DNA of 19,664 nucleotides from DRGV01 sp018903055 [NCBI: bacterium] (GTDB lineage Bacteria; UBP18; UBA7526), in contig JAHIPW010000089.1 in NCBI GenBank assembly GCA_018903055.1, positions 1 through 19,664 of the forward strand, given 5' to 3'. Shown in pieces: positions 3,849-18,894 of the stretch. Positions within the stretch are counted from its first letter, which is position 1; every line of letters starts with the position of its first letter. A model generated the notes under the pieces. That model was not told the DNA's origin. It searched no databases and was given only the letters and a program-made list of their open reading frames with translations. Position numbers and translations under genes: made by a program.

Positions 3849-3851
3849 CTA

Positions 3852-3955
3852 AACGCAGATTGCCGCAGATAACAACGCAGATGACCGCAGATAATAATCA
3901 GCGGCAATCAGCGTCTGAATACCCACGCAGTAAGCAATACAAAAGAATCTGCGTT
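3852..3955 (+). repeat. GCAGAT-word palindrome in the glmU leader with alternative pairings
   Basis: After the tRNA come two near-identical units (AACGCAGATTGCCGCAGATA and AACGCAGATGACCGCAGATA), then inverted words. AACGCAGATTGCCGC (3852-3866) can pair with GCGGCAATCAGCGTC (3901-3915, nearly perfect). Alternatively AACGCAGATT (3852-3861) pairs perfectly with AATCTGCGTT (3946-3955). The latter lies directly before the GAGGAG ribosome site of glmU. The two pairings exclude each other. Confidence 0.6.
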
Positions 3956-3967
3956 GAGGAGTAAGAG

Positions 3968-5341
3968 ATGAAAGATATGGTAGCCATTATCCTGGCAGCA
4001 GGTGAAGGGACTCGGATGAAGTCCGGATTGCCCAAGGTCTTGCACCAGGTCTGTGGCAAGCCCATGATAGAGTATGTCATCGATAGATTAGAAGAGCTGA
4101 ACATAGACAAGAAGATAGTCATCATTGGATATAAAGGAAACCTGGTTAAGGAGACCCTGGGTAAAAAGGTAGATTACATCTGGCAGAAGGAGCAACTGGG
4201 CACCGGCCATGCCTTGGCGCAGTGTAGAGAAATCCTCGCTAAATTTAAAGGGGACCTTCTGGTTCTGAGCGGAGATACTCCTCTCTTGACTACCCAGACC
4301 TTGAAGAGATTGATTGAGGTCCAAAGAGAGAAGAATGCCTTAGCTACTATTCTTACTGCTATTTTAAAGCCTCCTACAGGATATGGGAGGGTCGTCAGGC
4401 ATGGGGATGGAACTATCCGTAAGATAGTGGAGGAAGAGGACGCCACAATAATTGAGCTGGCTAATGAGGAAGTTAATGCCGGGACTTATTGTTTTAAAAA
4501 GGAAGCTATCTTCCAGGCCTTAGAGAAGATAAGGCCGGAAAATGTTCAGGAGGAATATTACCTAACAGATGCCATTGAGGTTTTGACCAGGAAGGGCCAT
4601 AGGGTAGAGGCTTGCACTACAGATGAGGCAGATGAGATCATTGGGATTAACTCCCGCAAGGATCTATCCCTGGCCACTAAGATTATGAGGGAGCATATCT
4701 TAGATAGGCTCATGCTTAATGGGGTGACCATTATCGATCCTCTGACTACCACCATTGATCGGGAAGTGGAGATTGGTCGGGATACCATCATCTATCCCTT
4801 CACCATAGTTGAAGGAAAGACGAAGATCGGCCAGGATTGTATCATCGGCCCTGCGGTTCAGATAAAGGATAGTAAGATAGCCCACAAAGTAGAGATTAAG
4901 AACTCAAGTGTCCAGAATAGTATCATAGAATCAGAGGCTAGGATCGGTCCCTATGCCCACCTGAGGCCGGAGAGTAGAATCGGGAAGAAAGCCAAGATCG
5001 GGAACTTTGTAGAGATAAAGAAGTCCACTATTGGAAAAGAATCCAAGGTGTCTCATATGTCCTATATCGGGGATGCTACCCTGGGAGAAAATATCAATAT
5101 TGGGGCGGGAACCATCACCTGTAACTACGATGGCTTTAAAAAGTACCCCACATATATTGAGGATAAAGTATTCGTGGGAAGCAATACCAACTTTATTGCT
5201 CCAGTTAAAATTGGAAAGGGAGCGGTGATTGGAGCCGGCTCCACCATTACCGAAGATGTTCCTCCCTATGCCTTAGCCATTGCTCGGGGAAGACAGCGGA
5301 ATATAAAAGGCTGGGCAAAGAAAAAAACACAGAGAAAGTGA
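3968..5341 (+). CDS. glmU: Bifunctional UDP-N-acetylglucosamine pyrophosphorylase / glucosamine-1-phosphate N-acetyltransferase
   Basis: GlmU makes UDP-GlcNAc, the precursor of peptidoglycan and lipid A, from glucosamine-1-phosphate, acetyl-CoA and UTP in the cytoplasm. The 457 residues equal the normal length. The N-terminal nucleotidyltransferase shows LAAGEGTRMKS (9-19), QLGTGHA (76-82), LSGDTPLL (about 100-107) and EEYYLTD (about 195-201). The C-terminal half is a left-handed beta-helix of hexapeptide repeats. Acetyltransferase residues fall at the same numbers as in E. coli: Arg333, His363, Tyr366, Asn377 and Asn386. ATG 3968 follows GAGGAGTAAG. Its stop codon lies at the start of a GCAGG/GTGAG repeat that fills the next spacer. 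Confidence 0.97.
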   Translation: MKDMVAIILAAGEGTRMKSGLPKVLHQVCGKPMIEYVIDRLEELNIDKKIVIIGYKGNLVKETLGKKVDYIWQKEQLGTGHALAQCREILAKFKGDLLVLSGDTPLLTTQTLKRLIEVQREKNALATILTAILKPPTGYGRVVRHGDGTIRKIVEEEDATIIELANEEVNAGTYCFKKEAIFQALEKIRPENVQEEYYLTDAIEVLTRKGHRVEACTTDEADEIIGINSRKDLSLATKIMREHILDRLMLNGVTIIDPLTTTIDREVEIGRDTIIYPFTIVEGKTKIGQDCIIGPAVQIKDSKIAHKVEIKNSSVQNSIIESEARIGPYAHLRPESRIGKKAKIGNFVEIKKSTIGKESKVSHMSYIGDATLGENINIGAGTITCNYDGFKKYPTYIEDKVFVGSNTNFIAPVKIGKGAVIGAGSTITEDVPPYALAIARGRQRNIKGWAKKKTQRK

Positions 5342-5472
5342 GCAGGCGTGCAGGTGGGAAAGTGAGACGGAGAAACGGGGACACGGGGAAACGGAGCGAA
5401 ATCGATAGTCCATAGTCCGTAATTAATAGTCGGTTGTTTTCTCATTTTTACTTTTTACTTGTTAATTGTTAA
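5339..5472. repeat. Iterated spacer between glmU and prs
   Basis: The spacer opens with GTGAGCAGGCGTGCAGGTGG-GAAAGTGAG, a variant of the block at 17917-17945. Short-period words follow: AAACGGGGACACGGGGAAAC, then ATAGTCCATAGTCCG and TAATTAATAGTCGG, then CATTTTTACTTTTTACTTG and TTAATTGTTAATT. No gene, no convincing promoter and no U-tract terminator are visible. Confidence 0.6.
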
Positions 5473-5495
5473 TTCCGACCGAAGGGAGGTAAGGG
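5473..5495 (+). promoter_or_regulatory. prs ribosome-binding region with CCGA...GGGAGG motif
   Basis: TTCCGACCGAAGGGAGG (5473-5489) precedes the prs ATG at 5496. It is one of five or more starts in this window where a CCGA element lies 4-7 bases before the Shine-Dalgarno (compare 8035, 10369, 16757 and 18878). Confidence 0.55.
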
Positions 5496-6425
5496 ATGAA
5501 GAATAAGTTAAAGGTCTTGACAGGAAATGCCAATCCAGAATTAGCAAAGGAGATCTGTAAGTATCTTAAGATTTCTTTAGGCAAGGCAAAGGTGACCCAG
5601 TTTCCGGATGGGGAGATCTATGTCAAGATACTGGAGAATATAAGGGGAAAGGATGTCTTCATCATCCAGCCTACCTGTCCTCCAGTGAATAAGAACCTGA
5701 TGGAGCTTCTCCTTATGATCGATGCTGCCCAGAGGGCGTCTGCGGAGAGGATTACCGCCGTTCTACCTTACTATGGATATGCCCGGCAGGATAGGAAGGT
5801 GGAGCCAAGGGTTTCTATCGCGGCCAAACTGGTGGCCAATCTCATTGCCCGTTCTGGTGCCCATAGGGTGCTCACTATGGACCTCCATGCTGCCCAGATA
5901 CAGTCCTTCTTCGATATCCCGGTAGATCACCTATTCGCTACCCCAACCATCTGCAGATACTTCAAGAAGAAGAAATTCGTTGTCGTTGCTCCCGATGCTG
6001 GTGGGGTAGCCCGGGCGAGGTTCTATGCCAAGAGATTAGGGGTTCCCTTAGCCATTATCGACAAGAGAAGAGATTTAACCGGGAAGACGACAGTGATGAA
6101 TGTCATTGGTGAGGTAAAGGGTAAGAACCTGGTCATTGTCGACGACATCATAGATACCGCCGGGACTTTGATACAGGCGGTGAGAGCCTTGAAAAATAAG
6201 GGGGCAAAGGAGATCTCCGCTGCCTGCACCCATGGGGTCTTCTCTCCTCCGGCAACAAAGATATTGAAAGATAAGATAATTAAGGAAGTAATAATTACCA
6301 ATTCCATTTCTCTGCCTAAGGAAAAGAGGCTCAAGAAAATAAAAGTTCTCTCTGTTGCCCCCCTACTGGGAGAAGCAATAAAGAGGATCTACAAGGGAGA
6401 GTCGGTAAGCTCCTTATTTGATTAG
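5496..6425 (+). CDS. prs: Ribose-phosphate pyrophosphokinase (PRPP synthase, class I)
   Basis: The enzyme transfers pyrophosphate from ATP to ribose-5-phosphate, giving PRPP for nucleotide, His and Trp synthesis. The 309 residues match class I length. Visible motifs are FPDGEIYV near 36-43, YYGYARQDRK (92-101), Asp129-Leu-His131 in TMDLHAAQIQ, APDAGG (165-170), DKRR with Lys190, and the PRPP-binding loop VIVDDIIDTAGT (213-224). The C-terminus NSISLP and KVLSVAPLLGEAI are also typical. The start is fixed by GGGAGGTAAGGG just upstream. It follows glmU as in Bacillus (gcaD-prs-ctc) and is separated from rplY by a GTTAA/TTAAC palindrome, so it may be on the same transcript. Confidence 0.97.
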   Translation: MKNKLKVLTGNANPELAKEICKYLKISLGKAKVTQFPDGEIYVKILENIRGKDVFIIQPTCPPVNKNLMELLLMIDAAQRASAERITAVLPYYGYARQDRKVEPRVSIAAKLVANLIARSGAHRVLTMDLHAAQIQSFFDIPVDHLFATPTICRYFKKKKFVVVAPDAGGVARARFYAKRLGVPLAIIDKRRDLTGKTTVMNVIGEVKGKNLVIVDDIIDTAGTLIQAVRALKNKGAKEISAACTHGVFSPPATKILKDKIIKEVIITNSISLPKEKRLKKIKVLSVAPLLGEAIKRIYKGESVSSLFD

Positions 6426-6439
6426 ACACAGATAGATTT

Positions 6440-6548
6440 GTATAAGTTAATAACGGTTAATAACAGTTAAAAACAGTTAAAATCGGTTACATTAAAGAAG
6501 GCAACTGATGTTAACCGTTGTTAACCGATAGTAACTGATATTAACCGA
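6440..6548. repeat. Long GTTAA/TTAAC quasi-palindrome upstream of rplY
   Basis: The left arm (about 6440-6490) iterates GTTAATAACGGTTAATAAC, CAGTTAAAAACAGTTA and TCGGTTAC. After a short loop (ATTAAAGAAGGCA) the right arm (6504-6548) iterates TGTTAACCGTTGTTAACCG and ACTGATATTAACCG. As RNA it would fold into a hairpin of roughly 45 bases per arm, ending right before the AGAGGTAAAG ribosome site. A 22-base stretch (6504-6525) recurs exactly, inverted, at 12960-12981. Confidence 0.75.
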
Positions 6549-6558
6549 GAGGTAAAGA

Positions 6559-7284
6559 ATGGAGAAAGTAAATTTAGAAGCTAAAATAAGAGAAAAGGTA
6601 GGCAAAGGCTCCTCGGGAAGGCTGAGGAGAACCGGCTATATTCCAGCCGTCCTCTATGGAGAGAAAGAGGAACCTCAACCCCTGATTGTGAATACTAAGG
6701 ACCTGGAGAAGGCCCTCTCTACTGAGGCGGGAGAGAACGTCATTATCTCTCTAAAGGTAGGAGATAGGCCGAGGACAGTCATTGTAAAGGAGCTGCAGAC
6801 CGATCCCGTAAGGGGAGACCTTTTACATGTCGACCTCTGTCAGATATCCCTGAGAGAGAAGTTAAAGGCCGCAGTTCCTATTGAGGTGAGGGGAGAGGCT
6901 CCCGGGGTGAAGGAGGGAGGAATACTCCAGTATAGATTGAGGGAGATAGAGGTGGAGTGTCTTCCCACTGAGATTCCAGAATCTATTCCTGTTGATATTG
7001 GGGGCTTAGGGATCGGAGACTCCTTACATATCAAGGATTTGAAAATAACTGGGGATATTAAGATATTGATGGATAAAGAAGAGACGGTGGTCTCCATCGT
7101 TCCTCCGACAGTAGAAGAGGTTGCTCCACCCACACCAGAGGAGGTGGTGACCGAACCTGAGGTCATCGGAGAGGAGAAAGAGGTACCACCAAAGGAAGTA
7201 GGGGAGGCAAAGGAGGCCAAGCCTCCTGCTAAGGAAGAGAAGAAATCGGAGAAAGCACCAAAGGCAAAAGAAAAGAAGAAATGA
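6559..7284 (+). CDS. rplY: Large subunit ribosomal protein bL25, Ctc form
   Basis: This protein binds 5S rRNA in the 50S subunit. Residues 1-93 form the L25 domain (NLEAKIREKVGKGSSGRLRR, GYIPAVLYG, VIVKELQTDPVRGDLLHVDL). Residues about 100-185 match the second, mainly beta TL5/Ctc domain (PIEVRGEAPGVKEGGILQ, VECLPTEIPESIPVDI). The last ~56 residues are a low-complexity Glu/Pro/Lys tail ending AKEKKK, which makes the 241-residue protein longer than most Ctc proteins. The frame overlaps pth by 4 bases (ATGA), implying translational coupling. The order prs-ctc-pth is the same as in Bacillus. Confidence 0.95.
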   Translation: MEKVNLEAKIREKVGKGSSGRLRRTGYIPAVLYGEKEEPQPLIVNTKDLEKALSTEAGENVIISLKVGDRPRTVIVKELQTDPVRGDLLHVDLCQISLREKLKAAVPIEVRGEAPGVKEGGILQYRLREIEVECLPTEIPESIPVDIGGLGIGDSLHIKDLKITGDIKILMDKEETVVSIVPPTVEEVAPPTPEEVVTEPEVIGEEKEVPPKEVGEAKEAKPPAKEEKKSEKAPKAKEKKK

Positions 7285-7850
7285 TCCTATTCCTTGGTCT
7301 GGGGAACCCAGAGAAGAGATATCAGAAGACACGCCATAACTTGGGCTTCCGCATTCTTGATTCTCTGGCCAAAAAACTCAAGATCGACATAAAGACCAAG
7401 AGATATAAATCCCTTATGGAAAGGGGAAGGATAGGAAGAAAAAAAATCGTTCTTGCCCAACCCCTAACCTTTATGAATAATTCTGGAGTGGCCGCGGCTT
7501 CCCTGGTTAGAGGTCTGGAGATTCCTCTGAAGAATCTGGTCGTTGTCTGTGATGACATCGACCTTCCTTTAGGAAGAATAAGAATCAGGAAAAAAGGTTC
7601 ATCCGGTGGCCATAAAGGCCTGGAATCCATAATTCAAAATTTGAAAAGTGAGGGATTCCCTCGCCTGCGCATCGGGATTGGGAGGCCTCCTCAGGGGATG
7701 AATCCTAAAGAGTATGTCCTTCAAAATTTTACCAAAGAAGAAAATTTACTAATTAAAAAAGCGACTGATAAAGCCGGGGAGGCCCTGATCTTCCTTGTGG
7801 AAGAAGGGATTATTCCTGCTATGAACAAATATAACATTAGTAACCAGTAA
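7281..7850 (+). CDS. pth: Peptidyl-tRNA hydrolase
   Basis: Pth cleaves peptidyl-tRNA released from stalled ribosomes, recycling tRNA in the cytoplasm. The 189 residues are family length. Key positions seen: GLGNPEKRY with Asn9, catalytic His19 in RHNLG, Asn66 in TFMNNSG, the Asp of CDDIDLPLG (about 91), and GSSGGHKGLESI, where Lys112 stands in place of the Asn found in E. coli GHNGL; Lys is seen in some homologues. Start overlaps the rplY stop (ATGA). The final codons AGT AAC CAG TAA belong to an AGTAACC repeat that continues into the spacer, so the last residues (SNQ) were probably set by the repeat. Confidence 0.96.
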   Translation: MILFLGLGNPEKRYQKTRHNLGFRILDSLAKKLKIDIKTKRYKSLMERGRIGRKKIVLAQPLTFMNNSGVAAASLVRGLEIPLKNLVVVCDDIDLPLGRIRIRKKGSSGGHKGLESIIQNLKSEGFPRLRIGIGRPPQGMNPKEYVLQNFTKEENLLIKKATDKAGEALIFLVEEGIIPAMNKYNISNQ

Positions 7851-8036
7851 CCAGCGAACAGTAACCAGCAAAACTACAGATTACCAGAACATCAGAGTAT
7901 CAGAATGAGGATTCAGATGGTCAGAATGTCAGATTTAATCTGAAGTTTGATATCTGACCTTCTCTATCTGATAATCTGGTTATCTGATGCTCTTCTATTT
8001 TTTACTGTAAACTGGTTACTGTAAACTGTTAACTCC
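7839..8036. repeat. Two-tier ~200-base quasi-palindrome between pth and hppA
   Basis: The outer left arm AGTAACCAGTAACCAG and AACAGTAACCAG (7839-7870) faces the outer right arm ACTGTAAACTGG and TTACTGTAAACTGTTAACT (8004-8034). The inner left arm (7874-7940) iterates CAGATTACCAGAACATCAGA, ATCAGAATGAGGATTCAGAT and GGTCAGAATGTCAG. The inner right arm (7941-7992) iterates AATCTGAAG, TATCTGACC, TATCTGATAATCTGG and TTATCTGATGC. It begins inside the pth stop and ends in the hppA ribosome region. The same inner words recur at 11508-11615. Confidence 0.75.
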
Positions 8037-8051
8037 CGAGTGAAAGGATGG
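8021..8051 (+). promoter_or_regulatory. hppA leader element shared with alr
   Basis: GTAAACTGTTAACTCCCGA (8021-8039) is identical over 19 bases to 16743-16761 in front of alr. In both cases a GTGA(A/G)(A/G)G ribosome site follows immediately. The conserved placement suggests a copied leader module, not chance. Confidence 0.6.
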
Positions 8052-8057
8052 AGAGAA

Positions 8058-10121
8058 ATGATTCCAGTATTTGGTGATTTGACATCTTTAATAGCTGCCC
8101 TGGCCTGTGGGGTAGTGGGTCTCTTCTTCGTTCTCATTCTTTCCCGAAGAATACTGAGGAAGGATGCGGGTAGTGAGAAGATGATCAAGATCTCGGATAG
8201 CATTCATCAGGGAGCCATGGCCTTTCTATATCGAGAGTATAAGGCAATCGCCTTCTTCATTCTGGCCATCGCCATAATCCTCTTCTTCGCTGTGGCAAAG
8301 AAGACCGCCTTGGCCTTCTTAGCGGGCGCCCTCTTCTCCCTCTTAGCTGGCTACTTGGGGATGCAGATTGCCACCAGGTCCAATGCCCGCACCGCTCAGG
8401 GGGCGAAGAAGAGCTTCAATGAAGCCCTTTCCATCGCCTTTCCCGGAGGGGCGGTGATGGGCCTCTCTGTTGTCTCCCTTGGCCTATTGGGTCTCTCCCT
8501 GGTCTTCCTACTCTTCATTGGTAAAGGAGAGATGGAATTATCAGATAGAATCATAGAGGCCACTTCACTCATCGTGGGATTTTCCATGGGCGCTTCCCTG
8601 GTGGCCCTATTCGCCAGGGTAGGAGGAGGAATCTATACCAAGGCCGCGGATGTTGGTGCTGATTTGGTGGGAAAGGTGGAAAAAGGGATACCGGAGGATG
8701 ACCCTCGAAATCCAGCGGTTATTGCTGATAATGTGGGCGACAATGTAGGGGATGTGGCAGGCATGGGGGCTGATCTATATGAATCCTATGTGGGAGCCAT
8801 CATCGCCTGTTTAGTCATCGCTGCCGCGGCATTCAATACCAAGGGGATGATGCTCGCCATGCTCTTGGCTGGCTGGGGAATCTTTGCTTCTATCATTGGG
8901 GTATTCTTCGTAAGGATGAAGGAGGGCCAGGATCCTCAGAGAGCACTGCGTAACGGCATGGTATCAAGCGCCCTGGCTCTGATAATGGGAGCCTTCATTC
9001 TAACTACCTACTGGTATAACGAATCCTGGAAGATATTCAATACCTTTTTTAGTGTTTTAGCCGGTCTGGTAGCGGGCCTCGTTGTGGGATTCACCGCAGA
9101 GTACTTTACTAGTGGGAAAGAGGTGCGCCAGATCGCCCAGGCAACGACTACTGGTCCAGCAACCAATATCATTCAGGGCCTGGCGGTGGGAATGAGATCT
9201 ACTGCCCTCCCCATGGTGGCCATCGGCCTGGCAACCATGGTTGCCTACTGGTTAGAAGGGATCTTCGGGGTGGCCTTGTCTGCCATTGGGATGTTATCCA
9301 TAACGGGAATGACCGTGGCGGTCGATGCCTATGGACCTATTGCCGATAACGCTGCCGGGATTGCCGAGATGGCAGGAATGGGGCCAGAGGTTCGGAGGAG
9401 GGCGGAGAGGTTGGATGCCGTTGGGAATACTACGGCTGCCATTGGAAAGGGATTTGCTATCGGTTCTGCTGCTCTGACTGCTCTTGCTTTATTCGTCGCC
9501 TATTCTAAAGTAGTGGACATCACTCTCATCGATTGCCTCAAGGCCAAGGTGGTTGCCGGACTATTCATAGGGGGAGTAGTACCATTTCTCTTTTGCTCGA
9601 TGACCATGCAGGCCGTAGGAAGGACGGCCCATAAGGTGGTGGAGGAGGTGAGGAGGCAGTTTAAGGAGATAAAAGGCCTCATGGAAGGGAAGGCGATGCC
9701 TGATTCCTATAAATGCGTAGATATCACTACCCGGGGGGCCTTAAGGGAAATGATTGCCCCCGGGATTATGGCAGTTATCATTCCTTTTATCATCGGCATT
9801 CTCTTGGGAGTGGAAACCCTGGGAGGATTTCTAATCGGTTCTTTAGTGGCCGGTGTTCCCCTGGCCATTATGCTCGCCAATACGGGTGGCGCCTGGGACA
9901 ATGCCAAGAAGTACATTGAGGAAGGAAATTTAGGAGGGAAGGGCTCTCAGGTCCATAAGGATTCTATCATCGGGGATACGGTAGGGGATCCCTTCAAGGA
10001 TACCGCCGGGCCCTCTTTAAATATTCTATTGAAGCTCATGGCCATCGTTTCATTGGTCTTTGCTCCTGTTATCCTATCCCTCAATAAGCATCTCATGGCA
10101 CTCATTGAGAGAATATTCTAA
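8058..10121 (+). CDS. hppA: Membrane-bound K+-dependent pyrophosphatase (H+ or Na+ pump)
   Basis: The enzyme couples PPi hydrolysis to cation export across the inner membrane. From ATG 8058 it has 687 residues and many TM helices. The PPi/Mg site is clear: [11 protein letters not shown] (198-208), [20 protein letters not shown], and the second-half [19 protein letters not shown] and [25 protein letters not shown] carries Ala460 and Gly463, the K+-dependent pattern; K+-independent forms have Lys and Thr there. The Glu in ADLYE (Glu242) is at the position of Thermotoga Glu246, one turn before the plant site. That arrangement occurs in Na+-PPases and in some K+-dependent H+ pumps, so the ion is unsettled. 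A GTG at 8040 would overlap the RBS and is rejected. Confidence 0.95.
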
Positions 10122-10141
10122 AGTATCAGAACTTCAATAGT

Positions 10142-10285
10142 TACACGGATGGGCACAGATTAAAAGATACGGATTAGCACTGATTCTCATAACTAAATCC
10201 GTGTCAATGCTTAATTATTTATGCTCTCTAGGATGCCAACGAAGTGCATCCTGTAATCAGTTTAGTCAATCCGTGCTAATCTGCT
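10142..10285. repeat. ACGGATTAGCAC / GTGCTAATCTG quasi-palindrome after hppA
   Basis: Left words ACACGGATGGGCACAGATTA, GATACGGATTAGCACTGATT are answered by AAATCCGTGTCAATGC and AGTCAATCCGTGCTAATCTG. Near its middle is a separate perfect 7-bp hairpin, AGGATGC (10230-10236), loop CAACGAAGT, GCATCCT (10246-10252). No T-run follows either structure. No ORF is credible in this stretch. Confidence 0.65.
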
Positions 10286-10287
10286 TG

Positions 10288-10361
10288 CCCCGCACCTTTT
10301 AATATTCAGAATTTTCTGAATACTTAAATAATGCCTTTATGAATGCTAAAAAGGTGCGGGG
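10288..10361 (+). promoter_or_regulatory. 13-bp inverted repeat spanning the ychF translation start region
   Basis: CCCCGCACCTTTT (10288-10300) is perfectly complementary to AAAAGGTGCGGGG (10349-10361), with 48 bases between. The interval holds a second hairpin, ATTCAGAA (10304-10311) with TTCTGAAT (10314-10321). The 3' arm contains the AAGGTG ribosome-like site and the first base of a GTG codon at 10361. An almost identical pair of arms flanks the rplI start (13346-13358 and 13443-13455). Confidence 0.65.
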
Positions 10362-10390
10362 TGAAATTGCCGAACGAAGTGAGGCTTATT

Positions 10391-11428: not shown

Positions 11429-11447
11429 TCTTAGTGTGCTAATATAA

Positions 11448-11480
11448 AAAAAGTAGGAAAGAAGAAGAGTAGGAAAGTAG
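11448..11480. repeat. AGTAGGAAAGTAG words after ychF
   Basis: AAAAAAGTAGGAAAGAAGAA and GAGTAGGAAAGTAG form an unpaired purine-rich block. The same words appear at 18773-18818 with their inverted partner at 18841-18880, and again after mlaF at 19642-19664. Confidence 0.6.
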
Positions 11481-11507
11481 AAATCAATGCAAAATAGAAA
11501 GAGTATC

Positions 11508-11615
11508 AGATTACCAGAATACCAGATGGAGAAGGACAGATATTAGAAGGTCAGATTGAGTCTGAAATCTGATTCCTGAATTCTCATTCTGATACTCTGA
11601 TGTTCTGATATTCTC
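11508..11615. repeat. ATCAGATTACCAGA / TCTGATACTCTGAT quasi-palindrome upstream of rpsF
   Basis: The left arm GTATCAGATTACCAGAATAC, CAGATGGAG, GACAGATATTAG, GGTCAGATTGAG faces the right arm TCTGAAATCTGATTCCTGAA, TTCTCATTCTGATACTCTGA and TGTTCTGATATTCTC. It uses the same words as 7874-7992, in the same polarity. Downstream, 11622-11666 holds three copies of the separate TAATC(T/C)GTG word without a left arm. Confidence 0.7.
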
Positions 11616-11686
11616 AATTATTTGTAATCTGTGCTAATCCGTAATTAATCTGTGATAATCTGTGTTCAAAAAGGAGGTCTAACGGG

Positions 11687-12480: not shown

Positions 12481-12586
12481 GACACAGATTCACACAGATT
12501 TTTTACAGATGGACACAGATAACGGATCTTCCTCAACTAATCTGTGATCTGTGAGAATCCGTTTTTGATCTGTGAAGATCCGTGTT
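12481..12586. repeat. CACAGATT / AATCTGTG quasi-palindrome between ssb and rpsR
   Basis: The left arm GACACAGATTCACACAGATT and TACAGATGGACACAGATAAC is answered by CTAATCTGTGATCTGTGAG, AATCCGTTTTTGATCTGTG and AAGATCCGTGTT. The left arm touches the ssb stop, and the right arm ends 1 base before GAGGAGG of rpsR. T-runs occur within the arms, not after a GC stem, so it is not a standard terminator. It interrupts an otherwise compact ribosomal operon. Confidence 0.75.
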
Positions 12587-12601
12587 AGAGGAGGAAAGAG
12601 A

Positions 12602-12892: not shown

Positions 12893-12977
12893 ATACTTCT
12901 GTCATCATACTCCTCTTCCTTTCCCCTCTTAGATCTCGCCATGGCTCCCTTCCTCTTCAGTTAACAACGGTTAACAT

Positions 12978-13155
12978 CAGTTAATAAGGATGCCTTTCGC
13001 TAACGCTCAGGAACCTTGTTTCTTCGCTATCGCTCAGAAATAGCAGTTAATAAGGATGCCTTTCGCTAACGCTCAAGAACCTTGTTTCTTCGTTTTACTC
13101 AGAAATAAGCCAAGCAAGTTGTCTCTTTCTTCGCTTTGCTCAGAAATAACAGTTG
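12978..13155. repeat. Direct repeat of a ~65-base unit built from TTCGCTnnnGCTCAG words
   Basis: Copy 1 (12978-13042) and copy 2 (13044-13107) both read CAGTTAATAAGGATGCCTTT, CGCTAACGCTCA(G/A)GAACC, TTGTTTCTTCG, then CTCAGAAATA. They differ only by a few bases. A third, shortened copy (TTTCTTCGCTTTGCTCAGAA-ATAACAGTT) lies at 13128-13155. Each copy itself holds two TTCG(C/T)Tnnn(G/A)CTCAG sub-words. A further sub-word, TTTCGCCGATACTCAGGG, occurs at 13384-13401. Confidence 0.8.
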
Positions 13156-13196
13156 CATTTTTCAAGGCAACCGATTTTAACCGCCCCTCGTTTTCA

Positions 13197-13261
13197 CCCC
13201 TCGGCTTTGCCTTCGGGATACTTCGCCGAGGTATCCTGAGCCGTAGGCGAAGGGCTCGGGA
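13197..13261. repeat. GC-rich nested hairpin element
   Basis: Outer stem CCTTCG (13210-13215) pairs with CGAAGG (13248-13253). Directly stacked on it, GGATAC (13216-13221) pairs with GTATCC (13231-13236) around loop TTCGCCGAG. CTTCGCC (13221-13227) could alternatively pair with GGCGAAG (13246-13252). The element is markedly richer in GC than its surroundings, with CCCC and GGGCTCGGG at the edges. It is followed by ACTAGGCGAT, not a T-run. Confidence 0.6.
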
Positions 13262-13345
13262 CTAGGCGATCCTGAATGAAATGAAGGACCGTTAATAACC
13301 GTTTTTAACCGATATTAACCTCTTCAGTGAAGGAGCGAGAGATGA

Positions 13346-13455
13346 ATCCCGCACCTTTCTTTAGAATTGGTTATGAGAAAACCTTTCGCCGATACTCAGG
13401 GATGAGATGTATAAATAATATACAGAGATATCTAAGAAGGAAAAAGGTGCGGGAT
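13346..13455 (+). promoter_or_regulatory. 13-bp inverted repeat enclosing the rplI leader and start codon
   Basis: ATCCCGCACCTTT (13346-13358) is perfectly complementary to AAAGGTGCGGGAT (13443-13455), 84 bases apart. The 3' arm contains the AAGGTG ribosome site and the first two bases of the rplI ATG (13454). Folding would hide the start. The arms share CCCGCACCTTT / AAAGGTGCGGG with the ychF leader (10288-10361). Confidence 0.7.
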
Positions 13456-13897: not shown

Positions 13898-13900
13898 ACA

Positions 13901-14230: not shown

Positions 14231-14249
14231 ATCTTAGGAAGGTCTACTT

Positions 14250-15185
14250 ATGAACGTTTCAAATAGATTAATGGGCATCATCATTCTCTACCTTATCACT
14301 GCCTTCATCTGTATCGGCCTTCTGGCTAAGAAGATAGAAAATAGAGAAATAGCAGAAAATTGTTATCAGCTGGGCATTAAATTAGAAGAAATGGGAGAAT
14401 TGGAAGAAGCAAAGAAATCTTATTTAAAAGCCTACCAGCTTAATACTATAAATCTTGCTTATGAGAAAAAGATTTCTTCCCACGAAAAATATATTACTTA
14501 TATAAGACATTCTAAGACTTTAATGGAACAGAAAAAGTATAAAGAAGCCATTAAATACTGTCAAGAGAAGATAGAAGAGTTCAAAGATAGCCCACTTGCA
14601 ATAGAAAGAGCGGTAACAGCTGCACTTCATCTACGACTTGCTCAAATATATGAAGAGGAAGGCAAAAAAGATCTGGCAGAAAAAGAAGAGAGAATAGGTC
14701 AGAAAATAAGGACAGAAATATCTCACTGGAGAAATCTCTTTATGTCATTAATAATACTTCCTGTTGTCGCTTCTGGTATGTCAGTGGTTAGTATAGGCTT
14801 ATTAATCATAGTTTTAGGAATTGTTCTCGGTATTACTCGACTCACCGAAAAAGGAAAGAAACGCTTATCTATTGAATCTAAGTTCAGGCCGAAGGAAATA
14901 GTTTTGGTAGTAATATTGTCCATTCTTCCTTTCTTCGTCTTTCTTTTTCCCTTTTTCACAAAGTATGGAATAGGATGGGCGATTGGTTTCCCTTGTTTCC
15001 TGTGGCTACTCATCATCAGTTCTTTAGTATATTTCTTAAGGAGACGTAGAAAAAAAAGTGTAATACTTCTTGTTAAGGAACTCCTCTTTCTCTGTATGAT
15101 TATCTTTCCTTTCTGGCTTGTTGTCTTTATGTTCTACTGGTCGATTGGAGTACCAATCGTCTACTCCTGGCTAAAATATTACTAA
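14250..15185 (+). CDS. Membrane protein with TPR-like domain and multi-TM C-terminus, unknown
   Basis: The 311-residue protein starts with a TM helix (8-26). A helical, TPR-like region of about three repeats follows (roughly 34-63, 83-112, 122-150; for example YQLGIKLEEMGELEEAKKSY and LRLAQIYEEEGKKDLAEKEE). After it come a long hydrophobic stretch at 163-198 and further TM segments near 216-236, 240-263 and 271-297. The soluble part would lie on one face of the membrane; its side cannot be told. The ribosome site TAGGAAGG precedes the ATG. Codons are visibly more A/T-ending than in rplI or dnaB, suggesting lower expression, faster evolution or acquisition. I recognise no family. Confidence 0.75.
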   Translation: MNVSNRLMGIIILYLITAFICIGLLAKKIENREIAENCYQLGIKLEEMGELEEAKKSYLKAYQLNTINLAYEKKISSHEKYITYIRHSKTLMEQKKYKEAIKYCQEKIEEFKDSPLAIERAVTAALHLRLAQIYEEEGKKDLAEKEERIGQKIRTEISHWRNLFMSLIILPVVASGMSVVSIGLLIIVLGIVLGITRLTEKGKKRLSIESKFRPKEIVLVVILSILPFFVFLFPFFTKYGIGWAIGFPCFLWLLIISSLVYFLRRRRKKSVILLVKELLFLCMIIFPFWLVVFMFYWSIGVPIVYSWLKYY

Positions 15186-15232
15186 TTGATGACTAACCCG
15201 AGACAATGAACCCAAAGTTAAAATTTGCTGAT

Positions 15233-15284
15233 ATTACATCTGTTATCTGTGTGAATCTGTAATAAATCTGTGATAATCTGTGTA
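15233..15284. repeat. AATCTGTG words before dnaB
   Basis: ATCTGTTATCTGTGTGAATC, TGTAATAAATCTGTGATAAT and CTGTGTA repeat the TAATCTGTG word about five times. Only the right-hand arm of the usual palindrome is present. The last word ends 4 bases before the AGGAGG ribosome site of dnaB. Confidence 0.65.
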
Positions 15285-15300
15285 TAATAGGAGGTTTACC

Positions 15301-16662
15301 ATGTGCGCTGAGGCAATAAGGAGAGAGGAAATGATTGAGAAGGTCCCTCCCCAGAATATTGAGGCAGAGAAGTCGGTAATTGGTTCCATGCTCGTTGAGA
15401 AGGAGGCCATTGGAAAGGGCATCGAGGTTTTAGGAAATGAGAAGCCCTTCTATAAGGAGGCCCATAAGAAAATCTATTCGGCAATTGTGGAACTCTTCAT
15501 GAAGAATGAGCCGGTGGATCTGGTGACCATGACTGAGGAATTGAGGAGGAAGGGAAACCTGGAGGCCATTGGGGGGACAGCCTATTTAACAGAAATGATA
15601 AACTCCGTTCCTACGGCAGCCAATGTTGAATACTATGCCAAGATTGTTCAAGAAAAAGCGACATTGAGGGGATTAATCAATGCCTGTGACGAGATAAAGA
15701 ACCTGAGTTATGAGAGTGGGGAAGAGGTGGACAGGATTGTAGACAGCGCAGAGAAGATAATCTTCTCTGTTACCCAGGAGAAGATAAAACAGGACTTTAT
15801 ACTAATAAAGCATATCATAAAGGATAGTTTCCAGGCCATTGAGGAGTTATATGCTAAGAAGGAGCATGTCACCGGCATTCCCACTGGCTACAGAGAATTT
15901 GACCTGAAAACAAGTGGACTACATGGCTCTGAATTAATAGTTATTGCGGGAAGACCCAGTATGGGGAAGACCTCCTTTGCTTTGGGGATCGCCCATAAGG
16001 CCGGGGTAGAGGAGAAAATCCCGGTTGCTATATTTTCCTTGGAGATGTCAAGGGAACAGCTCGTTCAGAGGATGCTCTGCTCCGAGGCCCGGGTCGATGC
16101 CCAGAAGGTGAGGACCGGCTACTTGAGTGAATCCGACTGGCCAAAGCTTACCATTGCTGCCGGAAGGCTGGCCGAGGCCCCGATATTCATAGATGATACC
16201 CCAGCCATCTCTGTTCTGGAAGTAAGAGCCAAGGCGAGGAGATTGAAGGCAGAGCATAACATAAGCTTACTCGTCATCGATTATTTACAACTTATGTCTG
16301 GTTCGGGAAGGATAGAGAATAGGCAGCAGGAGATCTCAGAGATCTCCCGTTCCTTGAAATCCCTTGCCCGCGAGCTGAATGTTCCGGTAATTGCCCTCTC
16401 TCAGCTTTCCCGAGCTGCAGAACAGAGACCAAGCCATAAGCCCCAGCTCTCTGATTTGAGGGAGTCGGGCGCCATTGAGCAGGATGCCGACCTGGTGGCC
16501 TTTATTTTCAGGGAAGAGTATTATGAGCCGGATAATCCAGAGGTAAGAGGGATCGCAGAGATAAATATCGGAAAGCAGAGGAATGGTCCGACTGGAACAC
16601 TGCAATTAGCTTTCATAAAGGAATATACCAGGTTTGAGAACTTAGCCAAGAGAGCAGAATAA
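15301..16662 (+). CDS. dnaB: Replicative DNA helicase DnaB
   Basis: DnaB is the hexameric helicase that unwinds DNA ahead of the replisome. From ATG 15301 (site AGGAGG at 15289-15294) it has 453 residues. The N-terminal primase-interaction domain shows PPQNIEAEKSVIGSML (16-31) and VDLVTMTEEL. The RecA-like C-domain shows Walker A AGRPSMGKTSF (216-226), FSLEMS, Walker B LLVIDYLQ (323-330), the Gln/Ser of ALSQLSR, SDLRESGAIEQDAD and the KQRNGPTG arginine-finger region. No intein interrupts it. A GTG at 15280 precedes the ribosome site and is rejected. It sits in the common rplI-dnaB-alr neighbourhood. Confidence 0.97.
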   Translation: MCAEAIRREEMIEKVPPQNIEAEKSVIGSMLVEKEAIGKGIEVLGNEKPFYKEAHKKIYSAIVELFMKNEPVDLVTMTEELRRKGNLEAIGGTAYLTEMINSVPTAANVEYYAKIVQEKATLRGLINACDEIKNLSYESGEEVDRIVDSAEKIIFSVTQEKIKQDFILIKHIIKDSFQAIEELYAKKEHVTGIPTGYREFDLKTSGLHGSELIVIAGRPSMGKTSFALGIAHKAGVEEKIPVAIFSLEMSREQLVQRMLCSEARVDAQKVRTGYLSESDWPKLTIAAGRLAEAPIFIDDTPAISVLEVRAKARRLKAEHNISLLVIDYLQLMSGSGRIENRQQEISEISRSLKSLARELNVPVIALSQLSRAAEQRPSHKPQLSDLRESGAIEQDADLVAFIFREEYYEPDNPEVRGIAEINIGKQRNGPTGTLQLAFIKEYTRFENLAKRAE

Positions 16663-16684
16663 GCTGATAAGCGGAGCAAGGAGG

Positions 16685-16755
16685 GGTTTACGGTTCACGG
16701 TTTACGGTGAACGGTAAACAGTCCCGACGGATGTCGGGACGGGTAAACTGTTAAC
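16685..16755. repeat. GGTTTAC / GTAAAC palindrome with CCCGAC hairpin upstream of alr
   Basis: GGTTTAC recurs at 16685 and 16699, and GTAAAC at 16714 and 16743, giving several nested pairings (for example 16700-16705 with 16714-16719). Between the GTAAAC copies lies a perfect hairpin, GTCCCGAC (16721-16728), loop GGAT, GTCGGGAC (16733-16740). No T-run follows it. The block runs into the alr ribosome region. Confidence 0.7.
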
Positions 16756-16773
16756 TCCCGAACAGAGTGAGGG
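16743..16773 (+). promoter_or_regulatory. alr leader element shared with hppA, with CCGA...AGTGAGG motif
   Basis: GTAAACTGTTAACTCCCGA (16743-16761) matches the hppA leader exactly over 19 bases. ACTC at 16754-16757 can pair with GAGT at 16765-16768, placing part of the GAGTGAGGG ribosome site in a small stem ahead of ATG 16777. Confidence 0.6.
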
Positions 16774-16776
16774 AAG

Positions 16777-17907
16777 ATGGATAGCCAATCCACCTGGGCA
16801 GAAATTGATTTAGCTGCTTTAATCCATAACTTTAAAGAGATCAGGAAAAAAGTGGGCCCGGATGTGGGAGTCATGGCCATTGTTAAGGCTCAGGGTTATG
16901 GCCATGGGATGGTCCAGGTCTCAAGGCCCCTGGAGAAGGAAGGGGTAAATTATTTTGGTGTGACCTCTCCTACCGAAGCCTTCCTCCTCCGAAAAGAAGG
17001 AATCGAATCGCCCATTCTTATTCTGGGCCCCACATTGCTTGAAAAGATAGAAAAGATCATAAAAAAGAATATTACTCAAACGATATGCACTAAAGAGATG
17101 GCCCTTGCTCTGCAAGGAGAATGCAAGAGATTCAAGAAGAGGCTCAAGGTTCATATTGAAGTAGATACCGGGATGGGAAGAACCGGAGTTCCCCATCAGA
17201 GAGCGCTGAAGTTAATAAAAGAGATAATAAAAATTCCGGAACTGGTGGTAGAGGGAATCTTCACTCATTTCTCAACAGCAGATGAAGAGGATAAGAGTTT
17301 TACCAAAGAACAGATAAAAAAGTTTAAAGAAATCTTAGAAAAGTTAGAGAAAGAAAAGATAAATATCCCCCTGAAGCATGCGGCGAACTCAGCCGGGATC
17401 CTGGGCTTCCCAGAGAGTTATTTTAATATGGTAAGGCCGGGTCTTGCCCTCTATGGCATCTATCCTTCTAGGTACGTTTCAAGGTCCCTGGACCTCCATC
17501 CGGTAATGAGTCTCAAGAGTAAAGTGATATATCTAAAGAGGGTTAAGAAAGGTGCTACCATAAGCTATGGCAAGACCTATGTTACAAATAAAAATACCAC
17601 CATTGCCATCCTTCCCATCGGCTACGAGGATGGCTACAATCGTCTCCTTTCCAATAAGGGAGAGGTTATCATAAGGGGGAAGAGGGTCAGGATCGCGGGA
17701 AGGGTCTGTATGGACCAGACGATCATAGATGTTGGTGAGGTTCCCGATGTTAAGGTAGGCGATGAGGCAGTTCTCATAGGAAAGCAGGGGGGAGAGAGGG
17801 TCTCTGTTGAGGAAATAGCAGAGAAGGTGAATACTGTCCCCCATGAGGTAGTCTGTAGGATTGCCGGGAGGGTCCCCCGTGTTTACCTTAAAAGCAGTAA
17901 CCAATAA
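16777..17907 (+). CDS. alr: Alanine racemase
   Basis: Alr is a PLP enzyme that makes D-alanine for peptidoglycan. Its 376 residues are family length. Lys37 in VKAQGYGHG binds PLP, with Tyr41 of the same motif. IEVDTGMGRTG (127-137, Arg135), THFSTAD, RPGLALYGIYPS (220-231), catalytic Tyr264 in SYGKTY, and VCMDQ (Cys311-Met312-Asp313) follow, with GYEDGYNR replacing the usual GYADGYPR. The ribosome site GAGTGAGGG fixes the start. The last codons AGT AAC CAA TAA coincide with the AGTAACC repeat, and the stop lies in the loop of hairpin CCAAT-AACC-ATTGG (17901-17914). Confidence 0.96.
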   Translation: MDSQSTWAEIDLAALIHNFKEIRKKVGPDVGVMAIVKAQGYGHGMVQVSRPLEKEGVNYFGVTSPTEAFLLRKEGIESPILILGPTLLEKIEKIIKKNITQTICTKEMALALQGECKRFKKRLKVHIEVDTGMGRTGVPHQRALKLIKEIIKIPELVVEGIFTHFSTADEEDKSFTKEQIKKFKEILEKLEKEKINIPLKHAANSAGILGFPESYFNMVRPGLALYGIYPSRYVSRSLDLHPVMSLKSKVIYLKRVKKGATISYGKTYVTNKNTTIAILPIGYEDGYNRLLSNKGEVIIRGKRVRIAGRVCMDQTIIDVGEVPDVKVGDEAVLIGKQGGERVSVEEIAEKVNTVPHEVVCRIAGRVPRVYLKSSNQ

Positions 17908-17964
17908 CCATTGGACAGCGAGCAGGTGAGCAGGTGAGAAAGTGAGTAAAAAGCACACTTTCTC
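17901..17964. repeat. alr stop hairpin and GAGAAAGTG / CACTTTCTC palindrome
   Basis: CCAAT (17901-17905) pairs with ATTGG (17910-17914) around the alr stop. Then GCGAGCAGGTGAGCAGGTGA leads into GAGAAAGTG (17936-17944), which pairs perfectly over 9 bases with CACTTTCTC (17956-17964), and imperfectly further out with CTGATCACTG. The left-arm words match those at 5339-5367 after glmU. No T-run follows. Confidence 0.7.
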
Positions 17965-17998
17965 CTGATCACTGATTACGGCACATAGGAATGCGAAA

Positions 17999-18769
17999 AT
18001 GAAAAAGTTTTTCGAATTCATTGGCAGATGGACGACCTTTATCCTGAAACGTACGGGAGAGGTGGTCATCCTATTCTTCAGAATCTTATCCTGGATAGTG
18101 AGGCCGCCCCTGGATCTTAAGAATATCACTAGTCAGATGGTGGAGATTGGAATAAGGTCCTTACCTGTGGTGAGCCTGGTTGCTCTCTGCATCGGTATGG
18201 TCTCTGCCTTGCAGGGAGGCCATGCGGCCCAGTTAGTTGAGACCATGGGCATTGTGGCGGGAGGGGTAGCCCTGGGCATGGTCCGGGAACTAGGTCCGGT
18301 CTTGACCGCATTAATGCTTGCTGGGAGAGTGGGGGCAGGGATTACCGCAGAGTTAGGGACCATGAAGGTTACCGAACAGATAGATGCTTTAGAGACCCTG
18401 GCCACCGACCCCATTAAGTACCTTGCTGTTCCCAGGTTTATTGCTGGGGTTATTATGACCCCTATACTTACTATCTATGCCACTGTCATAGGCATTGCGG
18501 GTGGCTATTTCATCGGGGTACGTAAACTGGGCATCGGCTCTCGACAGTATATAGATGGCACCATAGAAGCCCTCTCTACCGATGCCCTCTTCTCCGGTCT
18601 CATCAAGGCTGTGGTCTTCGGCGCCATTATCATAACCATCGGTTGTTATCAGGGTTTTCGGACCAGGGGAGGAGCAGAAGGGGTGGGAAGGGCGACCACC
18701 CTCTCAGTAGTTACTTCCTGTGTCCTGATTTTGGCTGCCGATTACTTTCTAACCGCGGCCCTCTTCTAA
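17999..18769 (+). CDS. mlaE: MlaE-family ABC transporter permease (outer-membrane lipid transport)
   Basis: The 256-residue protein matches the MlaE/YrbE family. An N-terminal amphipathic helix and a first hydrophobic segment are followed by RSLPVVSLVALCIGMVSALQ, VRELGPVLTALMLAGRVGAG, the signature AELGTMKVTEQIDALETLATDP, and several further TM segments ending AADYFLTAALF. In diderms MlaE works with MlaF and an MCE protein (MlaD) to move phospholipids between the inner and outer membranes. ATG 17999 follows AGGA at a slightly long spacing. mlaF lies 125 bases downstream across a repeat spacer. Substrate specificity cannot be read from sequence, so the name is at family level. Confidence 0.94.
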   Translation: MKKFFEFIGRWTTFILKRTGEVVILFFRILSWIVRPPLDLKNITSQMVEIGIRSLPVVSLVALCIGMVSALQGGHAAQLVETMGIVAGGVALGMVRELGPVLTALMLAGRVGAGITAELGTMKVTEQIDALETLATDPIKYLAVPRFIAGVIMTPILTIYATVIGIAGGYFIGVRKLGIGSRQYIDGTIEALSTDALFSGLIKAVVFGAIIITIGCYQGFRTRGGAEGVGRATTLSVVTSCVLILAADYFLTAALF

Positions 18770-18772
18770 AAT

Positions 18773-18880
18773 AAAGTAGGAAAGTAGAAAAGAAGAAAAG
18801 TAGGAGAGTAGAGATTGAAAGAAACAAAGTCAAAAGAGAAATACTTTCTTACTTTCCTACTCAGATACTTTCTTACTCCG
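18773..18880. repeat. GTAGGAAAGTAG / CTTACTTTCCTAC quasi-palindrome between mlaE and mlaF
   Basis: The left arm AAGTAGGAAAGTAG, AAAAGAAGAAAAGTAGGAGA and GTAG (18774-18815) is answered by ATACTTTCTTACTTTCCTAC and TCAGATACTTTCTTACTCC (18841-18879). The centre is AGATTGAAAGAAACAAAGTC. It begins 4 bases after the mlaE stop and ends in the mlaF ribosome region. The block starting at 19642 after mlaF repeats the left-arm end (GAGTAG-GGATTGAAAGA). Confidence 0.75.
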
Positions 18881-18892
18881 AATGGAGTGAGG
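18875..18892 (+). promoter_or_regulatory. RBS-overlapping hairpin ACTCC-GAAT-GGAGT at mlaF
   Basis: ACTCC (18875-18879) pairs with GGAGT (18884-18888). The 3' arm forms part of the Shine-Dalgarno GGAGTGAGG (18884-18892) just before ATG 18895. The same 14 bases occur at 515-529, in the leader of the TPR gene. Confidence 0.55.
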
Positions 18893-18894
18893 CG

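Follow-up and report, generated by a model that had tools for sequence, protein, structure and literature searches.

Palindromic words in the operon spacers of DRGV01 sp018903055 as probable ORF-less derivatives of S23 and GxxExxY insertion elements

Why are the genes on a 19,664-nucleotide contig of DRGV01 sp018903055 (JAHIPW010000089.1; the whole stretch analysed, hereafter the window) separated by spacers of iterated short words that read as imperfect palindromes, and where do such spacers come from? We scored each window spacer for self-inversion against 200 dinucleotide shuffles, giving as the figure the shuffles that reach the observed score. The original prediction had called eight spacers imperfect palindromes, and seven of them hold at 0 to 4 of 200: no shuffle reaches the score of the spacers at 3850-3967, 6426-6558, 7851-8057, 11429-11686 and 17908-17998, and four do so at both 12481-12601 and 18770-18894, with 10122-10390 being weak (12/200). 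Self-inversion was also detected in spacers not listed before (16663-16776, 0/200; 12893-13453, 3/200; 1-290, 5/200; and, weakly, 2363-2478, 15/200), while the spacers at 5342-5495 (168/200) and 15186-15300 (173/200), where words occur without a partner arm, proved non-palindromic. The features are as follows, with strand given where assigned.

3852..3957, + strand: palindrome in the tRNA-Gln-glmU spacer, its GCAGAT words being of GxxExxY-type vocabulary.
About 3925-3957, the 3' arm of the preceding palindrome: asymmetric GCAGTAAGCAATAC...ATCTGCGTT stretch, two further copies of which adjoin a GxxExxY ORF (L179).
5359..5455: unpaired word arrays GGGAAAGTGAGACGG... and ATAGTCCATAGTCC in the glmU-prs spacer, a non-palindromic relic.
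6440..6548: palindrome of AACRGTTAA words from prs to the L25 gene, by eye resembling some S23 ORF arms (L124).
7839..8036: nested palindromes in the pth-hppA spacer, the outer of GTAACCAG and its complement, the inner of ATCAGAATACCAG-like words that by eye resemble those flanking the S23 ORF of L137.
10142..10285: palindrome of CACAGATT / CACGGATT words in the hppA-ychF spacer, shuffle-weak as above, matching both arms of GxxExxY element L167 above null.
11446..11490: GTAGGAAAG word array after ychF, a relic with no partner arm.
11508..11615: ATCAGATTACCAG words forming a palindrome ahead of rpsF that by eye resembles the arms of S23 element L137.
11625..11668: relic ahead of rpsF, a single 3' arm made of ATCTGTG words.
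12481..12586: palindrome of CACAGAT / CACGGAT words in the ssb-rpsR spacer.
12955..13330: GTTAAC-type arms enclosing several other inserted words in the rpsR-rplI spacer.
15240..15287: partnerless 3' arm ahead of dnaB, made of ATCTGTG words (173/200 in the shuffle test).
16686..16757: palindrome in the dnaB-alr spacer, its GTTTACGG words enclosing a GTCCCGAC hairpin.
17917..17972: palindrome of GAGAAAGTG-like words in the alr-mlaE spacer.
18773..18880: palindrome of GTAGGAAAG words in the mlaE-mlaF spacer.

As had been proposed, all palindromes follow one architecture with differing words, some of which recur between spacers, and they are not copies of one transposed sequence. Orthologues of the ssb-rpsR junction in three related genomes (G003, G005 and G004) carry different words or word variants from those of the window, and at the mlaE-mlaF junction the words of G003 and G004 are unrelated to the window's. 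The window's family exhibits fast word turnover at fixed operon junctions, with words and even their presence differing between close relatives. Of 312 co-directional spacers on contigs sampled from three genomes, 143 beat all 25 of their shuffles, where about 12 would be expected.

The arm words had also been said to lie always in the 5' arm, with their complements in the 3' arm. In a tally of 12 window spacers (1-290 and 12893-13453 left out), this placement was clear for C[A/G]GAT, which falls 20 times in the 5' half of a spacer and twice in the 3' half (complement, 4 and 21), and the few copies of GTAGGAAAG (3 vs. 0; complement, 0 vs. 1) and GAGAAAGTG (1 vs. 0; complement, 0 vs. 1) were placed likewise, but GTTAA alone was without polarity (5 vs. 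6; complement, 0 vs. 5), so that "always" is too strong. Arm order is nonetheless nearly constant between genomes: word orientations trained on G003 called 26 of 27 palindromes of the window's own genome as consistent and 1 as opposite, and those trained on the own genome called 49 of 56 G003 palindromes as consistent and 4 as opposite, with 3 uncalled. What was taken for constant polarity relative to transcription, however, means that the words point inward. Because an inverted repeat X...X' is its own reverse complement, arm order is uninformative about transcription, the refuting test first put forward (arm order against gene strand) is ill-posed, and we dropped strand polarity as a property of these strand-symmetric palindromes. 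Orientation relative to transcription can be assessed only on asymmetric parts, such as a GCAGTAAGCAATA-like stretch of the 3' arm present in 12 copies in gene-called loci; its strand is that of the next called gene in 11/11 copies with a called neighbour (the twelfth, L064, has none), some of these 11 being the same junction in two genomes.

An RNA-level role was the leading inference of the original prediction, namely selected intercistronic hairpins serving mRNA processing, termination or stability. Nearly all palindromes do lie in co-directional operon spacers, many spacers fold better than shuffles (108/200 at z below -2), sense folds better than antisense in 64/93 palindromes, and RNase III is described as cutting rRNA intervening sequences (PMC4990558). 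Mismatches within the palindromes, however, are about equally G·T and A·C (237 vs. 223 in one tally, 320 vs. 340 in another), and hence give no sign of selection on RNA stems, and the preference for sense over antisense folding is smaller in palindromic (82 vs. 61) than in non-palindromic spacers (111 vs. 55). The differences in words and presence between close relatives, and the partnerless arrays at 5342-5495 and 15186-15300, also speak against selected hairpins. With a sense-folding bias that is unremarkable beside that of non-palindromic spacers, we rejected an RNA structural role as the main explanation and regard it as quite unlikely.

Arms of the same architecture were found around two families of small ORFs, S23 (TIGR02436/PF05635, a four-helix bundle; present in 102/290 genomes) and GxxExxY (TIGR04256/PF13366, PD-(D/E)XK nuclease-like; 65/290). 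In a full element, degenerate words of 7-11 bases stand in tandem in the 5' arm, their complements make up the 3' arm, and a single ORF occupies the loop between the two. Testing 200-base flanks of 29 ORFs of each family against 373 other open frames from the same loci, we detected arms above the 99% control level in 12/29 S23 and 17/29 GxxExxY ORFs, and above the 95% level in 15/29 and 22/29. A control drawn from the own family, where spacers around the 218 small genes used contain palindromes as well, left 9/29 S23 and 11/29 GxxExxY ORFs above 99%, and an alternative test (350-base flanks, mismatched-pair control) gave 10/30 and 12/30. The pattern extends to named S23 loci from many phyla (80 taken, 79 testable), with inward arms above 99% in 33/79 and above 95% in 44/79 (509 controls); S23 ORFs without arms above the 95% control number 14/29 and 35/79 in the two sets. 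Among 10 plasmid records opened (3 of 8 GxxExxY and 7 of 34 S23 matches), arms were seen by eye, with no control, in 10/10, the 3' side being short in Sphingomonas, and neighbours were annotated on the ORF's strand in 10/10. The elements examined lie between protein genes or adjoin tRNA genes, mostly in sense orientation and between, or just inside, the stop codon and the next start (a tally without an orientation baseline).

Word vocabularies are specific to the ORF family. ACRCNRAK occurs inward three or more times at 12/30 GxxExxY ORFs vs. 0/30 S23 ORFs. In genomes outside the own family, CAGATT-type pairs are associated with GxxExxY (16/19 vs. 43/265, odds ratio 27.5, p = 1e-9) and, with GxxExxY held fixed, not with S23 (p = 0.22 and 0.57), and CAGNAGN heptamers are associated with S23 (21/28 vs. 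75/256, odds ratio 7.2, p = 3e-6) and, with S23 held fixed, not with GxxExxY (p = 0.31 and 0.16), all of these statistics ignoring genome kinship. When only GxxExxY-positive genomes are considered, the association of heptamers with S23 does not reach significance (odds ratio 3.5, p = 0.18). A reversed-pattern heptamer control is not a clean null, matching in some genomes because reversal of the heptamer yields a further word of this kind.

ORF-less spacers match the arms of some of these elements. Taking the best of 2808 shuffles as the null, 5 of 14 family elements (L130, L137, L167, L177 and L179) match 3 to 12 of 351 spacers with both arms, all 351 being kept, including any that adjoin known S23 or GxxExxY ORFs; coding stretches gave 0 matches for these five and swapped arms 0 to 2. 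The remaining nine have either no ORF-less match above null (5) or one (4) among the 351 spacers. A one-shuffle-per-spacer null, under which 10/14 elements passed, was set aside in favour of this stricter one, as it lay near chance level. Sharing of exact 12-mers with ORF arms is modest, at 48 (S23), 55 (GxxExxY) or 99 (either) of 339 ORF-less spacers, compared with 17 and 12 for coding controls and 7 and 17 for shuffled ones. The other 240/339 share no exact 12-mer with 15 sampled ORF elements, and part of the word families may therefore have arisen differently.

Near-identical cyanobacterial plasmids provide filled, empty and ORF-truncated alleles at one operon junction. An S23 insert faces a clean junction there, with flanks 99% and 97% identical, the filled and empty alleles differ by a clean 428-base unit, and a relic at the same junction retains S23 residues 1-36 at 75% identity. 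In a Nostoc operon, S23 occurs at two junctions in different words, with ORF-less palindromes at a third, or none. These alleles bear on a purely mutational origin, in which slippage and template switching in spacers would generate quasi-palindromes and ORFs would be captured by chance. Such a process would fit the tandem degenerate words, nested palindromes and lone arms, as well as the many ORF-less spacers that lack a long word in common with the sampled ORF elements; the clean filled and empty alleles of the 428-base unit, and the specificity of the words to one or the other ORF family across unrelated lineages, argue against it, and we consider it unlikely.

REP/REPIN sequences (RAYT transposase) and MITEs are likewise short intergenic palindromes in many copies, with non-autonomous forms, and for elements of such a type a transposase, Y1 (RAYT) or another, might act in trans. 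With regard to target-site duplication, S23 site A has GTAA at its two junctions and is alone in this among the sites compared (site D by eye cuts the end of the upstream gene); this would be in keeping with such movement, as would the MITE-like appearance of another element of these genomes, CCCGCACC...GGTGCGGG. Those families, however, have fixed ends and a transposase, whereas the ends here are variable words: in place of the shared terminal inverted repeats of MITEs, we found words that differ between copies, even at orthologous junctions. Y1 transposase (PF01797), the one transposase family searched for, was found in 0/6 draft family genomes by a search that was positive in 5/14 control genomes, and reverse transcriptase (PF00078) also in 0/6. 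We therefore hold transposition of this kind to be very improbable.

With arms around the ORFs, the double association of words with ORF families, the three kinds of allele, fast turnover and sense position all observed, the spacer palindromes are in our judgement likely to be ORF-less derivatives of S23/GxxExxY insertion elements inside operons. Such elements would lose their ORF, decay to lone arms, nest and be replaced. During insertion the arms may work as DNA hairpins or cruciforms, with GxxExxY as the putative cutting enzyme of one element class, the S23 ring as a candidate word-binding scaffold in the other, and copying presumably left to host repair or replication; insertions might persist because both neighbouring reading frames are spared. 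The iterative copying process first suggested may still describe how word arrays grow, but the arms themselves are apparently carried by the ORF-bearing elements. If so, many spacers of this lineage may hold fast-turning insertions rather than regulatory sequence, scattered reports of heptamer and palindromic spacer repeats gain a candidate cause, two common protein families of unknown role find a place in one kind of insertion element, and the role of rRNA intervening sequences and S23 proteins becomes testable in cultured cyanobacteria that have natural filled and empty plasmid alleles.

A wider reading, which we put forward tentatively and at somewhat less than even confidence, is that of a phylum-spanning element class without conserved ends, in which elements of two or more unrelated ORF families, every family tied to an evolving vocabulary of its own, insert in sense at operon junctions without a reverse transcriptase or known transposase and seed non-autonomous palindromes that fill spacers. 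The identity of such a class would lie in its architecture, with inward iterated-word arms, a purine-rich 5' side and one small ORF, encoding either a bAvd-like scaffold or a PD-(D/E)XK nuclease. Were this true, heptamer, STRR, TAACTGA, GGGAATC and rRNA intervening-sequence repeats would be one phenomenon.

Among known systems, the STRR of cyanobacteria are heptamer repeats. The DGR accessory protein Avd offers a likeness at the protein level, as the S23 protein of L132, one of two S23 family members scanned, matches the bAvd-like PF22296 above cut-off (NF033474 at 1e-10, below cut-off), although, unlike in Avd-bearing DGRs, no reverse transcriptase was found in the six draft family genomes. 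Iterated 7-mer words in spacers are shared with STRR and with the repeats reported for Xanthomonas (GGGAATC, where convergent pairs of repeats number 70 and 75) and Nostoc (GGGGA(C/T)T) (PMC4692102) and for Beggiatoaceae (TAACTGA; PMC4679880). These differ by their description as simple repeats, G-quadruplexes or regulator sites (PMC4692102, PMC4679880); the terms "23S" and "helix bundle" are absent from both main texts, and "S23" from that of PMC4692102. Among the matches listed from open-licence PubMed Central, no paper linked such words to S23 or GxxExxY in operons.

The closest known kind are the S23-bearing intervening sequences of 23S rRNA. The accessible part of PMC4990558, which mentions neither ORF-less spacer copies nor GxxExxY forms, describes for instance that of Coxiella burnetii, whose complementary ends form a stem with the S23 ORF in the loop and which has tandem GACAGAT heptamers just before that ORF. 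Complementary termini were found here for about half of S23 ORFs (above the 95% control), and an S23 ORF lies inside the full S-type elements, not in ORF-less or GxxExxY forms. No 23S-located insertion was found: inverted pairs of 20 or more are absent from the only 23S gene recovered (G000), and the search of the other five family drafts gave no match. The present elements share with these intervening sequences their stem-forming complementary ends, the placing of an S23 ORF within the loop, and heptamers in tandem (PMC4990558), and differ in lying between protein genes instead of inside 23S rRNA.

Seven of the eight intergenic spacers that the original prediction described as imperfect palindromes were borne out, each matched in score by only 0 to 4 of 200 dinucleotide shuffles, although the spacer at 10142-10285 proved weak (12/200). 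Additional window spacers also pass as palindromic against 200 dinucleotide shuffles, and among co-directional spacers of 60-300 bases in sampled contigs of the window's own genome (G000) and two family relatives (G003 and G004), 143/312 are palindromic vs. approximately 12 expected. The proposed constant polarity holds in part: words point inward, and word orientation trained on one genome predicts that in another. Because an inverted repeat is identical on both strands, however, this constant arm order reflects inward-pointing words rather than polarity relative to transcription. The suggested RNA-level role fared less well. Were sense stems under selection, G·T mismatches (which become G·U in RNA) should outnumber A·C, and this excess is absent from the palindromes (320 vs. 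340; 237 vs. 223 in a first set), so the palindromes show no sign of RNA-stem selection; the sense strand gives the better fold in 82 palindromic spacers and the antisense strand in 61, a bias that is larger in non-palindromic spacers (111 vs. 55).

The window corresponds to contig C77 in a draft genome (1.085 Mb in 191 contigs) with one relative in the same genus and four in the same family. Its 16 called genes all lie on one strand, in an order retained in G002-G005 within the fetched stretches (protein identity 60-95%). The gene at 14250-15185, between dnaB and a small gene after rplI, has no tblastn match in the relatives' fetched stretches, which in G003, G004 and G005 extend this far. 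Operon junctions stay fixed while palindrome words change, with different-word palindromes at orthologous junctions of relatives such as mlaE-mlaF, ssb-rpsR, hppA-ychF and prs-L25; at prs-L25, the window's words are retained in G005. A comparison of G003 with G004, whose proteins have a median identity of 91%, covered 52 orthologous spacers between co-directional genes: 12 were short in both, 10 present/absent (some of them not word elements on inspection of flanks), 13 long in both and alignable, and 17 long in both and unalignable. The ispE-spoVG spacer, for instance, has 19 bases in the window and G003; in G004 it is 127 bases long and contains a palindrome. The next junction contains:

3778-3849, tRNA-Gln gene, between spoVG and glmU

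At this spoVG-glmU junction, G003 has an S23 (PF05635) ORF between TTAGTCGATAGTC-type arms and the window has an ORF-less palindrome; past the tRNA gene, GCAGAT palindromes occur in the window and G004, the S23 element in G003, and an other-word palindrome in G002.

The spacers also hold other recurring sequences. A second type of element, CCC(C)GCACCTTT...AAAGGTGCGGG(G), lies at 10288-10361 and 13348-13453, its right end abutting the start codon and providing the Shine-Dalgarno sequence. One G004 copy (L197) lies where stop and start codons overlap as ATGA and has ATGA on either side; G003 has plain ATGA there. A loose regular expression, which missed the window copies, gave 15 matches (several being one copy on both strands), many bordered by ATGA(A) and TGA(A). 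A CCGAANGGAGTGAGG-like word embedding ribosome-binding sites recurs before start codons (8034-8050, 16753-16773, 18878-18893) and in several family spacers. The spacer at 12990-13290 contains the further recurring words TTCGCTAACGCTCAGGAACC and CCTTCGCCTACGGCTCAGGATACC; similar words occur in many unrelated genomes.

The word arms belong to S23 ORFs and to GxxExxY (PF13366) ORFs. PF05635 was present in 6/6 family genomes (8, 8, 4, 10, 10 and 2 matches), 26/60 genomes searched and 0/14 controls; PF13366 was present in 6/6 and 21/60, with 3/14 controls at E 0.001 and 0/14 at 1e-10. For each ORF we scored the inverted match between its two 200-base flanks, with 373 other open frames from these loci as controls: 12/29 S23 (0.3 expected) and 17/29 GxxExxY ORFs exceeded the 99% control, as did 9/29 and 11/29, respectively, against 218 small own-family genes. 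Among named-genome S23 loci (the best 80 of 587 stretches, 79 with both flanks), 44/79 exceeded the 95% and 33/79 the 99% control; armed loci came from Acidobacteria, Planctomycetes, Bacteroidota, Chloroflexi, Nitrospirota, Cyanobacteria, Omnitrophota and others, and the 5' arm was purine-rich at 42 of the 44. Where both neighbouring long frames share one strand, the ORF lies on that strand at 54/59 of these named loci and, in our first sets, for 21/24 S23 and 19/21 GxxExxY ORFs, and 8/8 gene-called own-family places are in sense (all raw counts without a baseline).

ORF-less spacer copies match these ORF-bearing elements. We counted a spacer as a match when it fitted the two arms in their order with a score higher than any of 2808 shuffled spacers; of 14 family elements, 5 had several matches, 4 had one and 5 had none. 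For the five with several, coding stretches gave 0 matches and swapped arms 0 to 2.

Family elements with several ORF-less spacer matches
L137, S23, 12 matches, best L074:4031
L130, S23, 8 matches, best L073:2613
L167, GxxExxY, 11 matches, best L076:13624
L177, 3 matches, best L194:4900
L179, GxxExxY, 8 matches, best L212:4441

The window spacer before glmU and L179 have in common an asymmetric 3'-arm stretch, which is on the next gene's strand in 11/11 copies having a called neighbour.

Each ORF family goes with its own word vocabulary. ACRCNRAK points inward at least three times at 12/30 GxxExxY vs. 0/30 S23 ORFs (p = 1e-4). Across 284 phylogenetically non-independent genomes outside the family, using patterns picked after such words had been seen, CACRGATTNNCACRGATT occurred in 19, with GxxExxY in 16/19 vs. 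43/265 others (odds ratio 27.5; 13/13 vs. 26/83 within S23-positive and 3/6 vs. 17/182 within S23-negative genomes) and no association with S23 once GxxExxY was fixed. The heptamer pattern CAGNAGNCAGNAGNCAGNAG occurred in 28 of the 284, with S23 in 21/28 vs. 75/256 others (odds ratio 7.2; 6.9 within GxxExxY-negative genomes, p = 6e-4, and 3.5 within GxxExxY-positive genomes, p = 0.18) and no association with GxxExxY once S23 was fixed.

Natural plasmid alleles exist with and without the unit. We examined 3 of 8 matched GxxExxY and 7 of 34 matched S23 plasmid records, three of the seven being close mutual relatives at or near the element; by eye, word arms were present in 10/10, and both neighbours were annotated on the ORF's strand in 10/10, including fabD-GxxExxY-fabG and cas10-S23-cmr3. 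At site A, the empty allele of a Nostoc linckia plasmid reads AAAAAGTAA, TTAACAAATAAAT and ATG in succession, and the filled Trichormus allele has a 428-base S23 insert with GTAA at both junctions, on near-identical plasmids whose 800-base flanks are 99% and 97% identical. Nostoc C052 retains at this junction a 132-base relic with the 5' words and with residues 1-36 of S23 (75% identity). S23-less alleles were also found at sites B, C and D, the upstream gene's end being cut off, by eye, in the filled allele of D. In a second Nostoc operon, the plasmids variously have S23 at one junction, a differently worded S23 unit at the following one, ORF-less palindromes at a third that are built of the first junction's words (self-inverted scores of 85 and 46 vs. 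maxima of 31 and 28 in 200 base shuffles), nothing, or another small ORF. On two C052 plasmids (L319, L324), the gene upstream of the ORF-less palindrome terminates within the words, its last codons reading them, and in G003 (L085) an upstream gene likewise ends in ACGCGAAT words.

At least 90% of 26 GxxExxY protein sequences conserve each of the E..Y, D, ExK and Q positions, the pattern expected of PD-(D/E)XK nucleases. The S23 protein L132 matches bAvd-like PF22296 as well as PDB entries 2rld and 2gsc, both five-chain structures; a Coxiella study reports that S23 from Xanthomonas forms a homopentamer in its solved structure (PMC4990558). Neither a reverse transcriptase nor a Y1 transposase was found in the six draft family genomes. 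From these nuclease residues, S23 matches and absences, we infer that insertion may proceed via a DNA-level hairpin or cruciform using host repair; the ORF products might act on their own element's words.

Among the matches listed in open-licence PubMed Central, no paper joined such repeats or intervening sequences (IVS) to operon S23 or GxxExxY ORFs. GGGAATC repeats of Xanthomonas are reported to occur as 70 and 75 pairs in convergent orientation (PMC4692102), and most Beggiatoa TAACTGA repeats to end no more than a few bases from a start codon (PMC4679880). The Coxiella IVS places tandem GACAGAT heptamers before an S23 ORF, the same plan as our spacer elements, but in rRNA (PMC4990558).
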